A DNA stretch of 64,000 bases from Pseudophaeobacter arcticus DSM 23566. GTDB lineage: Bacteria > Pseudomonadota > Alphaproteobacteria > Rhodobacterales > Rhodobacteraceae. Within the stretch, counting starts at the first letter, position 1. Every line of letters begins with the position of its first letter. Positions 45,736 through 50,797 of this stretch are shown here, one piece after another. The notes below the pieces were generated by a model, which worked only from the letters and a program-made list of their open reading frames with translations, ran no database searches and was not told the origin of the DNA. The stretch lies in assembly GCF_000473205.1 (NCBI RefSeq), contig NZ_KI421507.1:3829057-3893056 (forward strand), given 5' to 3'. The position numbers and the translations under genes are program-made.

Positions 45736-47925
45736 ATGGACCGCGCTCAGATCGTGCATCAAAACTTCCTGGACCGGGTTGGTACTGGCGCCCTGCCGCA
45801 GGGCGCGGCGCCCTTGGTTGGGCTGGCCCCTGAGCAGGCCGTGGGGATCTACCGGGCCCAGGTGCTGAGCCGGGCGTTGGATATTACCAGCCGGTCCATG
45901 CAAAAGGCGGGGCAGGGGTTTTATACCATCGGCTCGTCAGGGCATGAGGGCATGGCGGCGGTTGCGCGGGCGCTGCGCCCTGATGATATGGCGTTTTTGC
46001 ATTACCGCGATGCGGCCTTTCAGATCTCCCGCGCCGATCAGGTGCCGGGTCAGCGCATCGCCTGGGATATGCTCCTCTCTTTTGCCTGCTCTTGCGAGGA
46101 TCCAACCTCGGGTGGGCGGCATAAGGTGCTGGGCTCCAGGGCGCTGATGATCCCGCCGCAGACCTCAACCATCGCCAGCCACCTGCCCAAGGCGGTAGGT
46201 GCTGCCTATTCCATCGGCGCTGCCAAACGCCATGCGCCCGAGCATAAGATCATGCGCGACGACAGCATTGTCATGTGCTCCTTTGGCGATGCCTCCGCCA
46301 ATCACTCCACTGCGCAGGGGGCGATCAACACGGCTGGCTGGACCTCGGTGCAGTCAACGCCGCTGCCGCTGTTGTTTGTCTGCGAGGACAACGGTATCGG
46401 CATTTCGACCAAGACACCCCGGGGCTGGATCGAGACCTCAATGCGGGCCCGCCCGGGTATCAAATACTTCAAGGCGGACGGGCTGGATATCTACGCGGCC
46501 CATGCCGTGGCACAAGAGGCCGCCGACTATGTGCGCCGCCGCAAGAAACCCGCTTTTCTGCATCTGCGCACCGTGCGGCTTTATGGCCATGCCGGGGCGG
46601 ATGTGCCGACGACCTATTTGCCCAAATCAGAGGTCGAGGCGGATGAGGCCAATGATCCGCTGCTGCATTCGGTGCGCCTGCTGGAACAGGCCGGGGCCTT
46701 GCCCCGGGCAGAGGCGCTGAAGATCTACACAGATACCTGCGCCCGGGTGGAACGTATCCGCGCCGAGGTGGTGACACGTCCACACCTGAAGACAGGTGCG
46801 GAGGTTGCAGCCAGCCTGATCCCGCCCACCCGTGCCTGTACTGCCAGCAATGGCTCCAGCGCAGAGGCCCGCGCCGCAGCCTTTGGCGGTGACATGCGGG
46901 CAATGTCCGACCCGCAGCCGATGTCACGGCTGATCAACTGGGCGCTGACAGATCTGATGCTGCAGCATGGTGAAATTGTCATGATGGGCGAAGACGTGGG
47001 TCGAAAGGGCGGCGTCTATGGCGTCACACAAAAGCTGCACCAGCGCTTTGGCCCGGACCGGATGATCGACACGCTGCTGGATGAACAGTCGATTCTGGGG
47101 CTGGCGATTGGCATGGGGCACAATGGCTTTGTACCGATGCCGGAAATTCAGTTCCTGGCCTATCTGCACAATGCCGAAGACCAGCTGCGCGGTGAGGCGG
47201 CAACCCTGCCGTTCTTCTCCAATGGTCAGTTCAGCAACCCGATGGTGCTGCGCATTGCGGGCCTGGGCTATCAAAAGGGGTTTGGTGGCCATTTCCACAA
47301 TGACAACTCGCTGGCGGTGCTGCGCGACATTCCTGGGATCGTGATTGCCTGTCCCTCGGATGGGGCGGAAGCGGCGATGATGCTGCGCGAATCCGTGCGG
47401 CTGGCGCGCGAGGAACAGCGGGTGGTGGTCTTTGTTGAACCAATCGCGCTGTATCCGATGCGGGATCTGCACGGGGCCAAAGATGGGGAATGGATGCGGC
47501 ATTACCCGGCCCCTGATCAAAGCATTTCTTTGGGCGATGTCGGCCAGCATGGCGAGGGCACGGATCTTGCCATCGTGACCTATGGCAATGGCCGCTACCT
47601 ATCGACCCAGGCCCAGGCCGAGCTGGAGGCAAAGGGCATCAAGAGCCGCATTGTTGATTTGCGCTGGCTGGCGCCGCTGCCGGCAGCGGCGCTGCTGGAA
47701 GCGACCAAAAGCTGCAAACATGTGCTGATCGTCGATGAATGTCGCAGCACCGGCAGCCAATCCGAGGCGCTGATGGCGCTGTTTGCGGAACAGGGTGACC
47801 GCCCGGCTACGCGCATCGCCGCCGAGGATTGTTTCATCGCCACCGGCCCGGCCTATGCCGCCACGCTGCCCTCAAAGGACAGCATTCTTGCCGCAGCCCT
47901 GGATCTGGTAGGAGCAAAACCATGA
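45736..47925 (+). CDS. Fused 2-oxoacid dehydrogenase E1 (alpha and beta in one chain)
   Basis: 729 aa. Residues about 1-370 are an E1-alpha with the TPP-binding stretch GDASANHSTAQGAIN...LFVCEDNGIGIST; residues about 390-729 are an E1-beta (MMGEDVGRKGGVYGVT, DTLLDEQSILGLAIGMG, final AEDCFIATGPAYAA). Single-chain E1 of this layout belongs to the branched-chain oxoacid class. It decarboxylates a 2-oxoacid and would pass the acyl group to an E2 lipoyl domain, but no E2 or E3 gene is next to it. Instead it overlaps a FabD-like acyltransferase by 4 bp. Confidence 0.88.
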   Translation: MDRAQIVHQNFLDRVGTGALPQGAAPLVGLAPEQAVGIYRAQVLSRALDITSRSMQKAGQGFYTIGSSGHEGMAAVARALRPDDMAFLHYRDAAFQISRADQVPGQRIAWDMLLSFACSCEDPTSGGRHKVLGSRALMIPPQTSTIASHLPKAVGAAYSIGAAKRHAPEHKIMRDDSIVMCSFGDASANHSTAQGAINTAGWTSVQSTPLPLLFVCEDNGIGISTKTPRGWIETSMRARPGIKYFKADGLDIYAAHAVAQEAADYVRRRKKPAFLHLRTVRLYGHAGADVPTTYLPKSEVEADEANDPLLHSVRLLEQAGALPRAEALKIYTDTCARVERIRAEVVTRPHLKTGAEVAASLIPPTRACTASNGSSAEARAAAFGGDMRAMSDPQPMSRLINWALTDLMLQHGEIVMMGEDVGRKGGVYGVTQKLHQRFGPDRMIDTLLDEQSILGLAIGMGHNGFVPMPEIQFLAYLHNAEDQLRGEAATLPFFSNGQFSNPMVLRIAGLGYQKGFGGHFHNDNSLAVLRDIPGIVIACPSDGAEAAMMLRESVRLAREEQRVVVFVEPIALYPMRDLHGAKDGEWMRHYPAPDQSISLGDVGQHGEGTDLAIVTYGNGRYLSTQAQAELEAKGIKSRIVDLRWLAPLPAAALLEATKSCKHVLIVDECRSTGSQSEALMALFAEQGDRPATRIAAEDCFIATGPAYAATLPSKDSILAAALDLVGAKP

Positions 47926-48959
47926 CCCGTACCGCCGTTTTGATCTGTCCCGGCCGGGGCACCTATAACAAGCCCGAGCTGGGTTATCTGCACCGTCATC
48001 ACGCCGATAAGGCGGCGCTGTTTGCGGGCTTTGATGCGGCGCGGGTCGCATTGGGCCAGGAAGAGGTCACCGCCCTGGATGGGGCAACGCGGTTTTCGGT
48101 GGGGAAATACTCGCGCGGCGATATTGCTTCGCCGCTGATCTATGCCAGCGCTCTGGCGGATGCGCAGTCGCTCGCGAGCGATATCGAGGTGGTTGCGGTC
48201 ACCGGCAACTCCATGGGCTGGTATATCGCTTTGGCCGCTGCTGGCGCGCTGTCGGCACAGGACGGGTTCGCACTGGTGAACACCATGGGGACCCTGATGC
48301 AGGAGCATCTGATTGGCGGTCAGCTGGTCTATCCCTTTACCGGCGATGACTGGCGACCAGATCCGCAGCGCAAGGCAGAGCTATTGGCGCTGGTGGCGCA
48401 GATCAACGCCCGCAGGGATCATGTGCTGGCGCTGTCGATTGATCTGGGGGGGATGTTGGTGCTGGCTGGAGATGACGCGGGCCTGACTGCCTTTGAGGCT
48501 GCCGTACCGCAGATCGCAGATCGTTTCCCGATGCGGCTGGCCAATCACGCCGGATTTCATACCGCGCTACAGGCGCCAGTGGCCACCGAGGGGCGTGAAC
48601 GGCTGGATGGGGGAATGCTGATGCAGCCCGCAGTGCCGCTGGTGGATGGGCGCGGTGCGATCTGGCAGCCGGGATCCAGCGATCTGGCAGCGCTTTGGGA
48701 CTATACCCTGGGGCATCAGGTGGTGGAGAGCTATGATTTCACCCGCGCGGTACAGGTCGCGGCGCAGGAGTTTGCTCCGGATCTGTTCATTGTCACGGGG
48801 CCAGGCACCACGCTGGGGGGGGCTGTGGCGCAATCGCTGGTGCATCAGGACTGGCGGGGCATGACGGATAAGGCGGCGTTCAAGGCGCGGCAGGCAGAGG
48901 CACCGCTGCTGATCTCCATGGGGGATGACAGCCAAAGATCCAAGGTCGTGGCCTCATAA
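47922..48959 (+). CDS. FabD-like acyltransferase lacking the malonyl-binding Arg
   Basis: 345 aa from ATG 47922 (ATGA overlap with the E1 gene). It follows E. coli FabD along its length: PGRG for PGQG, nucleophile Ser97 in GNSMGWY, VNTMGTLMQE over the FabD block ending RGKFMQE, catalytic His213 in GFHTALQAP, and VTGPGTTLGG. The FabD Arg that binds the malonyl carboxylate aligns with Met122, and the oxyanion-side Gln with Arg12. I infer transfer of a non-carboxylated acyl group, possibly the E1 product. The substrate is unproven. Confidence 0.78.
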   Translation: MTRTAVLICPGRGTYNKPELGYLHRHHADKAALFAGFDAARVALGQEEVTALDGATRFSVGKYSRGDIASPLIYASALADAQSLASDIEVVAVTGNSMGWYIALAAAGALSAQDGFALVNTMGTLMQEHLIGGQLVYPFTGDDWRPDPQRKAELLALVAQINARRDHVLALSIDLGGMLVLAGDDAGLTAFEAAVPQIADRFPMRLANHAGFHTALQAPVATEGRERLDGGMLMQPAVPLVDGRGAIWQPGSSDLAALWDYTLGHQVVESYDFTRAVQVAAQEFAPDLFIVTGPGTTLGGAVAQSLVHQDWRGMTDKAAFKARQAEAPLLISMGDDSQRSKVVAS

Positions 48960-49123: not shown

Positions 49124-50797
49124 CTATTTGATGACTTGGACCGGAACCGGCGGTGGGCCTTCGGGGTCGGGCTGGAGGCTGCGTTCTGGCGCAGTGACAA
49201 AGGGCGCCACGGCGTAGCTTTCGACGGGCTTGCTGATATTGTGCAGGGTCAAGGCGCCCAAGGAGGTGGCGTTCTGGCAAGAGCCTGGCAAGGAGTTCTG
49301 ACTGACCACAATCTGATGGCCCAGAGTCTTGCCATAGTCGCCAAGACGGGCGGCGATATTGGCGGCCTGGCCAATGACGGTGAAATCCAGCCGCTCCCGC
49401 GAGCCGACATTGCCATAGGTCACGGTGCCATAGGCAATACCGCTGGCACATTCGAGCACGGGCAAATCATGCTCAGCTGCGACCTCAGCCAAAGCCGGTA
49501 CAATGCTGCGGGCGGATTTCAGCGCCTGGGCGCGGGCCTGATCGGCATCCTCTCCGGTTTCGTTACCGGCGGGAAAGACTGCCAGAACCGCATCACCGAT
49601 GAATTTTAGCACCTCGCCGCCGTTGTCATGAACGATGGTGGAGGCAGTGTCGAAAAACGCGTTCAGCAGCTTGATATAGTCATGCCGCCCCAGCTGTTCC
49701 TGCAGCAGGGTCGAGCCACGCAGATCGCAGAACATGATGGCGGCGTCGATCTCATCGCCCTCACCGCGGCGGATCTTGCCGCCCAGAACCCGCTCGCCGG
49801 TGCGTTTTCCCACATAGGTCTCCAGCAGCGACTGAGCGTTTTCGCGCTGCATGAAGACCTCATAATAGCGGGCGACCACGGCGGAGCATTCAAAGATCAG
49901 GCCCAGATTTGCGGTGGAAAACCCATCCGGATGATCCGAGGCCACGGTGAGCACATTGATGCGCCCGTCGGAGAAGGGCAGCGGCATGGCGACATAATCC
50001 GTTGCACCGGCGGCACGCAGATCGCTGAGGATGGGGAAGGCATCATCGCTGTTTTCGGTGTCGATGCGATGGCGCACACCACCCAGGCCTTTGGAGACAT
50101 GGCGCAGCGGGCTGGCATTATAGGAGGGGTGTTCGTAGATCTCGTAGCTGGGGGCGTAGGTTGTCACCTCATCTGTGGCCTTTTGCCAGATGAAATTCTT
50201 ACCCGCGATCTGCGGGTGCAACGACCAGGCCAGCACTGACAGGCGCGAAAGGCAGACGCCTTGCTCCAGCAGCTTTTTGGAAAAGGCCTTGGTAAACTCT
50301 GCAGGGGTTGGCAAAAAGGCGGCTTCGCGCAGCAGCCAATCGACCAGCGGACCGGAGATATTGCCATATTCAGGCGGCGCGATCTGATTGGAGCCAAGGT
50401 CGATCAATGTATCGGGATCCGCGACAAAGCCCACATGGCCTTCGATCTGGGAGGCCTCCGGCAGGGTGTGTTCATAGATCCAGACGGCGTTGTCGACGCG
50501 CCCATCCTCTAGCTTGAGATCATGGAAACAGGCTGTACCTTTGAAGGGGCAGAAGGTTTGCAGGCCCACCTTGTTGGAGAGATCCACCACGAGATCATCG
50601 CGCGGAATGTAGATGGTTGGCTGTAGCCGGGTTTCATACATCACGCGCGCGCGGGTGCTTTTGGCCAACAGGCAGCCACCGCGCCGGACCTGGACTTCGC
50701 CGCGCAGGGGCTCGACCAGAATACCATAGCCGCGATTTTGCGGGCCACGATTCTGTGGCCCGGCACTGTTGGGGGGAGGCGGAACATGTGCGTTCAT
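49124..50797 (-). CDS. DUF427 domain fused to class III adenylate/guanylate cyclase
   Basis: 557 aa. Residues about 25-125 are a DUF427 domain (VQVRRGGCLLAKSTRARVMYET...YIPRDDL, then the TFCPFKGTACFHDL block). A linker/GAF-like part (about 150-340) follows. The class III cyclase domain (about 350-535) has the metal Asp in IMFCDLRGST, HDNGGEVLKFIGDAVLAVF, and NIAARLG. It makes cAMP (or cGMP). No membrane helix, so cytosolic. A fusion with DUF427, a small domain of unknown role, is unusual. Confidence 0.85.
   Translation of the reverse strand: MNAHVPPPPNSAGPQNRGPQNRGYGILVEPLRGEVQVRRGGCLLAKSTRARVMYETRLQPTIYIPRDDLVVDLSNKVGLQTFCPFKGTACFHDLKLEDGRVDNAVWIYEHTLPEASQIEGHVGFVADPDTLIDLGSNQIAPPEYGNISGPLVDWLLREAAFLPTPAEFTKAFSKKLLEQGVCLSRLSVLAWSLHPQIAGKNFIWQKATDEVTTYAPSYEIYEHPSYNASPLRHVSKGLGGVRHRIDTENSDDAFPILSDLRAAGATDYVAMPLPFSDGRINVLTVASDHPDGFSTANLGLIFECSAVVARYYEVFMQRENAQSLLETYVGKRTGERVLGGKIRRGEGDEIDAAIMFCDLRGSTLLQEQLGRHDYIKLLNAFFDTASTIVHDNGGEVLKFIGDAVLAVFPAGNETGEDADQARAQALKSARSIVPALAEVAAEHDLPVLECASGIAYGTVTYGNVGSRERLDFTVIGQAANIAARLGDYGKTLGHQIVVSQNSLPGSCQNATSLGALTLHNISKPVESYAVAPFVTAPERSLQPDPEGPPPVPVQVIK

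Follow-up and report, generated by a model that had tools for sequence, protein, structure and literature searches.

Which acyl group is handled by a 2-oxoacid dehydrogenase E1 that is encoded together with a FabD-like acyltransferase, and what does the second protein do with it? The question is raised by two genes in a 64,000-nucleotide stretch of the Pseudophaeobacter arcticus DSM 23566 genome (contig NZ_KI421507.1, positions 3,829,057 to 3,893,056; hereafter the window). The first gene (45736..47925, + strand) encodes a single-chain, alpha-beta fused, thiamine diphosphate (ThDP)-dependent 2-oxoacid dehydrogenase E1 of 729 amino acid residues, which we propose to be 2-oxoadipate-specific, and the second (47922..48959, + strand) encodes a FabD-fold acyltransferase-like protein of 345 residues (AT), whose proposed substrate is a glutaryl thioester. 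The genes share a 4-bp ATGA stop/start overlap (47922..47925, + strand). This arrangement, described in an original prediction made from the sequence of the window, is confirmed, and the two genes form a genuine unit that is conserved. The E1 is most likely a 2-oxoadipate dehydrogenase E1 of lysine catabolism. Taken jointly, the best explanation, which we regard as reasonably probable, is a 2-oxoadipate E1 that works with a shared E2 and yields glutaryl-CoA, with AT acting on the glutaryl group.

Lysine-degradation genes around the pair

In the established pathway, 2-aminoadipate is made by an aldehyde dehydrogenase, whether the route comes from saccharopine, lysine or pipecolate, transamination gives 2-oxoadipate, oxidative decarboxylation converts the latter to glutaryl-CoA, and glutaryl-CoA is used by glutaryl-CoA dehydrogenase (GcdH). 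The fullest operon, at locus L129, has the order LysR, aminotransferase, GcdH, E1, AT, aldehyde dehydrogenase and a saccharopine-dehydrogenase-like protein, the last of which has saccharopine dehydrogenase domains. Its aldehyde dehydrogenase, as well as that of locus L123, scores above the piperideine-6-carboxylate dehydrogenase equivalog cut-off (820 and 819 bits, respectively, versus 730). The label of GcdH rests on PDB scores (for the L129 protein, 569 bits with the human and 626 bits with a bacterial glutaryl-CoA dehydrogenase, and at most 238 bits with other named acyl-CoA dehydrogenases or oxidases among the matches listed), since the NCBIfam glutaryl-CoA dehydrogenase model was neither passed by two GcdH proteins nor their best family (235.5 and 231.7 versus 470 bits). 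The L129 operon provides an aminotransferase and one 2-oxoacid E1, and the conversion of 2-oxoadipate to glutaryl-CoA is the step left to fill, which is why the E1 is placed there; we infer its reaction on 2-oxoadipate from pathway knowledge and gene context.

Related arrangements are carried by plasmids: two Ruegeria plasmids have the order LysR, aminotransferase, acyl-CoA dehydrogenase, E1, AT, a Shewanella plasmid has the order acyl-CoA dehydrogenase, E1, AT (the plasmid acyl-CoA dehydrogenases of L162 and L161 are 80% and 73% identical, respectively, to the GcdH marker), and on a Legionella plasmid without AT the E1 gene overlaps one whose product is closest to glutaryl-CoA dehydrogenases. 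The gene that follows the pair in L124, and that follows E1 in the AT-less L112, encodes a flavoprotein with L-pipecolate oxidase as its best family (second-best family at 111 and 130 bits, respectively), and a homologue of it (51–57% identity) comes after AT in Ruegeria loci. A GcdH-type gene is also present within 5.5 kb of E1 in six of 12 further AT-less E1 genomes.

Orthologues were sought in 146 genomes of relatives (E1 threshold E ≤ 1e-60) and in a phylum sample of 398 genomes (E1 threshold E ≤ 1e-120), and a further collection comprised 379 stretches with a pattern match, 361 of them encoding a relative, from which the best 80 were kept. GcdH, aminotransferase, pipecolate-oxidase-like, aldehyde dehydrogenase and saccharopine-dehydrogenase-like genes, recognized by BLAST identity thresholds, served as lysine markers in a census of the 6 kb around E1. 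At least one marker was present in 17 of 28 relatives outside the window's genus and in 8 of 13 phylum-sample genomes, several contigs ending inside the 6 kb; G007 and G039 lie outside the census, and G039 has no lysine marker near E1. Among the 39 relatives having both genes, the best GcdH match of the genome adjoins E1 in eight (G021, G023, G047, G054, G062, G066, G078 and G102). Because these mostly single-copy neighbours recur in many genera, the linkage to lysine genes is probably above chance.

Several observations weigh against the assignment to lysine catabolism. Lysine genes were found within 6 kb of the pair in none of the 11 genomes of the window's genus, and 11 of the 28 relatives outside it have no such link either. 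The window's own genome has neither a piperideine-6-carboxylate dehydrogenase (best 311 versus 730 bits) nor a pipecolate oxidase (best 230 versus 600 bits) over the respective cut-off, and the pipecolate-oxidase-like genes of L124 and L112 also fall short of theirs (414 versus 600 bits). Aspartate aminotransferases are the nearest relatives of the aminotransferase, which bears no 2-aminoadipate-specific mark. The best GcdH lies away from E1 in 31 of the 39 relatives and, since GcdH is far commoner than E1 (114 versus 41 of the 146 relatives), many genomes that have GcdH get by in the absence of this E1. The persistence of E1 lineages lacking AT, taken up below, belongs with these points.

In the window's own genome, GcdH is found with a divergent LysR gene, away from the pair. 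The same genome carries two paired genes, the first encoding an LKR-like protein (276 bits against yeast saccharopine dehydrogenase (NAD+, L-lysine-forming)) and the second a protein with saccharopine dehydrogenase domains. As to the physiology of related organisms, labelling of Phaeobacter inhibens reportedly showed that lysine is converted in part, through 2-aminoadipate and pipecolate, to glutaryl-CoA, with 2-oxoadipate not detected (PMC5653290). The same paper states that earlier work spoke against a saccharopine route in P. inhibens, and both saccharopine and lysine dehydrogenase routes were reported for Ruegeria pomeroyi (PMC4334477). Some of these bacteria can alternatively degrade lysine by way of cadaverine and glutarate. 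In the literature searched, we found no assignment of a bacterial gene to the conversion of 2-oxoadipate to glutaryl-CoA.

Active-site residues of E1 and AT

The fused E1 has three domains over cut-off (E1_dh, 106.5 bits; Transket_pyr, 78 bits; Transketolase_C, 66.1 bits) and resembles 2-oxoisovalerate and pyruvate E1s in its NCBIfam and PDB matches. Among the 10 NCBIfam families that it matches, no equivalog or subfamily model is passed (best 124.3 versus 321 bits), and, going by chain names, none of its 46 PDB matches (E ≤ 0.001) is of the DHTKD1/OGDH type. His285 (codon 46588..46590, + strand) and His521 (codon 47296..47298, + strand), which we take to be the active-site histidines of E1-alpha and E1-beta, are present in 77 of 77 sequences. 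Equally invariant (77/77) are His89, His478, Asn479, Arg485, Asn522 and Asp523, at positions occupied in the aligned solved E1s by Gln/Tyr, Phe/Trp, Pro/Leu, Val/Leu, Ser and Gln/Asn, respectively; some of these positions presumably line the pocket, as in E1 structures.

For AT, a FabD fold is predicted by the structural model and its Foldseek matches, among which is PksD (8aw0), a trans-acting acyl hydrolase (E 5.6e-13, rank 36). In the alignment with FabD of the same genome, PGRG, GNSMGWY and NTMGTLMQ of AT stand opposite PGQG, GHSLGEY and RTRGEAMQ, and alignments with FabD structures from PDB give the same replacements. Ser97, the catalytic nucleophile in GNSMGW (codon 48210..48212, + strand), and the catalytic His213 (codon 48558..48560, + strand) are invariant in 115 distinct orthologues, together with Arg12, Asn96, Trp100 and Gln266, the last of which presumably matches a conserved Gln of FabD. 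Position 122 (codon 48285..48287, + strand), where FabD has the Arg that binds the malonyl carboxylate, is Met in 114 orthologues and Thr in one. The replacements, and the retention of Ser97 and His213, are thus as first described; the alignments restore no Arg at the carboxylate site, and the FabD motifs are not matched by AT. AT passes neither TIGR00128 (FabD / acyl carrier protein (ACP) S-malonyltransferase; 39.5 versus 260.9 bits) nor its best NCBIfam family, TIGR03131 (MdcH; 54.7 versus 297.9 bits), and the profiles place it in no family with a known unrelated role. Its C-terminal tail is conserved (Trp311, Phe320, Gln338 and Arg339).

The PGQG of FabD is located at the oxyanion hole, and in AT the absence of the classical malonyl Arg is accompanied by a new Arg at this position. 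On the alignments, the Arg of AT thus appears relocated to PGRG (Arg12, codon 47955..47957, + strand; 115 of 115 sequences), where it would be turned toward the acyl pocket and may bind the far carboxylate of the glutaryl group in place of the lost Arg. In mouse fatty acid synthase, R606 contacts the carboxylate of the extender (PMC6954729).

The original prediction read the pair as making and transferring a branched or other monocarboxylic acyl group, a reading to which the likeness of E1 to 2-oxoisovalerate and pyruvate E1s and the loss of the classical Arg of AT would lend themselves. We consider it very improbable: lysine and glutaryl-CoA genes are the neighbours and point to glutaryl, His478, Asn479 and Arg485 of E1 are invariant where the aligned solved E1s are apolar, and the Arg gained at PGRG possibly compensates for the lost one. 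A branched-chain operon was also considered and rejected: over the 216 loci described below, many of them short, BLAST with the E2s and E3 of the window's genome gave, own pyruvate dehydrogenase loci aside, one E2/E3 pair, in L267, and this is 2-oxoglutarate dehydrogenase-like.

Dependence of AT on E1 and the missing E2

AT has an orthologue in 31 of the 146 relatives (53–100% identity; next-best matches at most 37.8 bits) and E1 in 41. E1 is present in all 31 AT-bearing relatives, and likewise in all 16 AT-bearing genomes of the phylum sample (AT in 16 and E1 in 29 of 398), so that the pairing extends well beyond one genome; all 79 loci that carry both genes in the set L031–L110 have the identical 4-bp overlap. 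Ten relatives have E1 without AT, one of them (G032) with a contig end inside E1. We built an E1 tree from a selection of loci (77 sequences, 54 with and 23 without AT, one short row having been dropped), on which AT was gained or lost at least 10 times by parsimony, and at least five times when well-supported branches alone are counted. With midpoint rooting the outermost rows are AT-less, in a quickly built tree that gave a long-branch warning among those rows. The tree and the genome counts therefore indicate that AT goes with E1, and that E1 does not necessarily go with AT. Since AT-less E1 lineages persist, the E1 step can do without AT; AT is accessory, not obligatory, to E1, because E1 also occurs without it, still beside glutaryl-CoA dehydrogenase.

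Genes for E2 and E3 were sought by BLAST with the E2s and E3 of the window's genome against the 216 loci that gave an E1 match, of which many span only 4 kb and some are own pyruvate dehydrogenase loci. Apart from these pyruvate dehydrogenase loci, L267 (G437) is the one case in which E2 and E3 genes were found near the fused E1: a 2-oxoglutarate dehydrogenase-like E2/E3 pair lies there at a distance of about 5 kb from a fused E1 that lacks AT. The window's genome has two E2 core-domain matches, the E2s of pyruvate and 2-oxoglutarate dehydrogenase. Because it has no E2 of its own, E1 would have to use the lipoyl domain of another complex.

We propose that E1 decarboxylates 2-oxoadipate and would place the glutaryl group on the lipoyl domain of an E2 borrowed from another complex, either 2-oxoglutarate or pyruvate dehydrogenase, and that the glutaryl-CoA formed would pass to GcdH, as part of lysine catabolism via 2-aminoadipate. 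AT, translated with E1, would apply Ser97 and His213 to the glutaryl group, to carry it over from dihydrolipoyl to CoA or else to release glutaryl-lipoyl that has stalled. The strict overlap and the dependence on E1 suggest that AT works on the product of E1, and both transfer of glutaryl to CoA and its hydrolysis are conceivable for a Ser-His enzyme that has the FabD fold and has gained an Arg. Fusion and overlap of the genes, their conservation, the presence of E1 in every searched genome with AT, the linkage to lysine genes in many relatives, the residue replacements and the predicted fold are observed; substrate, shared E2, reaction of AT and role of Arg12 are what we infer in this scheme. 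A parallel exists in human cells, where the E2 of the 2-oxoadipate dehydrogenase complex (OADHc) is common to the 2-oxoglutarate complex, and where glutaryl-lipoyl adducts, a known problem of the shared E2, are cleared by the serine hydrolase ABHD11 and build up when ABHD11 is inhibited or lost (PMC12643935). The more specific claim, that AT takes glutaryl from the dihydrolipoyl of a shared E2 to CoA or water and thereby allows a pyruvate/branched-chain-type E1 for 2-oxoadipate to operate with no E2 of its own, we hold only tentatively.

Other roles of AT would also fit parts of these data. In the original prediction AT stood in place of the missing E2 and E3, and the absence of these genes beside the fused E1, L267 aside, bears out the premise. 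A strong form of this idea makes AT an obligatory E2 surrogate, the sole route of glutaryl from the lipoyl carrier to CoA, with the shared E2 core unable to perform the transfer; E2/E3 genes near the fused E1 in L267 alone, the attribution of both E2 core-domain matches of the window's genome to pyruvate and 2-oxoglutarate dehydrogenase, the invariant catalytic dyad and the strict overlap would all agree with it. Yet the scattered AT-less E1 lineages, several of them beside GcdH, need another route of acyl transfer, and the E2 counts, from which such a replacement might be read, show no clear difference (at most two E2 core-domain matches in 19 of 31 AT-bearing and 5 of 10 AT-less E1 genomes). 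Replacement of E2 is thus possible and not required, and we find the obligatory form unlikely.

Somewhat less unlikely, and still a minority view among our readings, is that AT is an editing hydrolase, which would rid lipoyl domains or CoA of acyl groups that are wrong or have stalled. FabD-fold acyl hydrolases exist, as PksD in the Foldseek matches illustrates, ABHD11 performs the same chemistry in human cells (PMC12643935), and the repeated absence of AT from E1 lineages fits an accessory role, but the gain of Arg12 is equally compatible with substrate binding in a transferase. AT might instead move glutaryl from CoA to ACP, the glutaryl-ACP then serving biotin or lipid synthesis. Its homology to FabD and the use of glutaryl-CoA by the alphaproteobacterial BioZ (PMC7645780) agree with this role, but no ACP or bio gene was noticed among the neighbours, at which no profile search was aimed, and we judge it improbable.

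Known systems and further neighbouring genes

The closest functional counterpart of the proposed 2-oxoadipate dehydrogenase is the mammalian complex (DHTKD1 as E1, DLST as E2, and E3), with the same proposed reaction, the same place in lysine catabolism and a shared E2. It differs in that the E1 described here is an alpha-beta fusion whose nearest solved relatives are pyruvate and branched-chain E1s, usually without E2/E3 genes nearby and often with AT as a partner. With FabD, AT has in common the predicted fold, the Ser-His dyad and the invariant Gln266, whereas Arg is replaced by Met, Gln by Arg (PGRG), GHS by GNS and Glu by Trp, the score is far below the NCBIfam cut-off, the C-terminal tail is conserved, and AT is not found without E1. 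The top NCBIfam family of AT is that of the malonate decarboxylase epsilon subunit MdcH (under cut-off), and no malonate decarboxylase genes were seen beside AT. PksD, a trans-acting acyl hydrolase of polyketide synthases, shares the fold and a possible hydrolytic role, but the context of AT is catabolic and coupled to E1. ABHD11, the human mitochondrial lipoyl deglutarylase, is a serine enzyme whose action on glutaryl-lipoyl is what we propose for AT; it belongs to the alpha/beta-hydrolases, and it is the proposed chemistry that is likened here.

A full-text search of one literature library, judged by titles and the beginnings of abstracts, returned no description of the E1/AT pair, and the proteins are currently labelled 'thiamine pyrophosphate-dependent enzyme' (E1) and 'ACP S-malonyltransferase' (AT). 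Should our proposal be correct, genes so labelled in alpha- and gammaproteobacteria would gain a testable role, and a FabD-fold enzyme a use beyond fatty-acid and polyketide synthesis. If AT off-loads glutaryl from lipoyl domains, it would represent a new kind of acyl-transfer partner of 2-oxoacid dehydrogenases and a bacterial parallel to ABHD11.

The third conserved neighbour that might have been expected, such as an ACP or lipoyl protein, did not emerge: antisense frames aside, no gene besides E1 and AT is present in more than about half of the 91 clustered loci. A gene for a protein with DUF427 and adenylate/guanylate cyclase domains (49124..50797 of the window, - strand) adjoins the pair in the window's genus and in loci of Leisingera and was not found near it in the Ruegeria loci searched; we rejected it as a conserved partner, as its position looks like genus-level synteny (Pseudophaeobacter, Leisingera).

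Some loci deserve separate mention. In Pseudophaeobacter leonis (G001; L056 and L012) the E1 match falls into two pieces, of which one has an internal stop, and the GcdH match is short, with the AT frame open, and in L128 (G020) two open frames make up the E1 match upstream of an intact AT frame. The E1 and AT of L052, from a record titled Nocardioides marinus, are 86% and 79% identical, respectively, to those of the window, and we suspect that the record is misnamed or contaminated. Downstream of the pair in L107 (9970..13239), and in many Ruegeria loci, lies a gene for a protein of about 1,080 residues (homologues 81–91% identical) that by eye may be a reductive-dehalogenase-like fusion. Finally, L112 and L115 contain, near an AT-less E1, a gene that we named by eye as type II 3-dehydroquinase-like, the two copies being 50% identical to each other.

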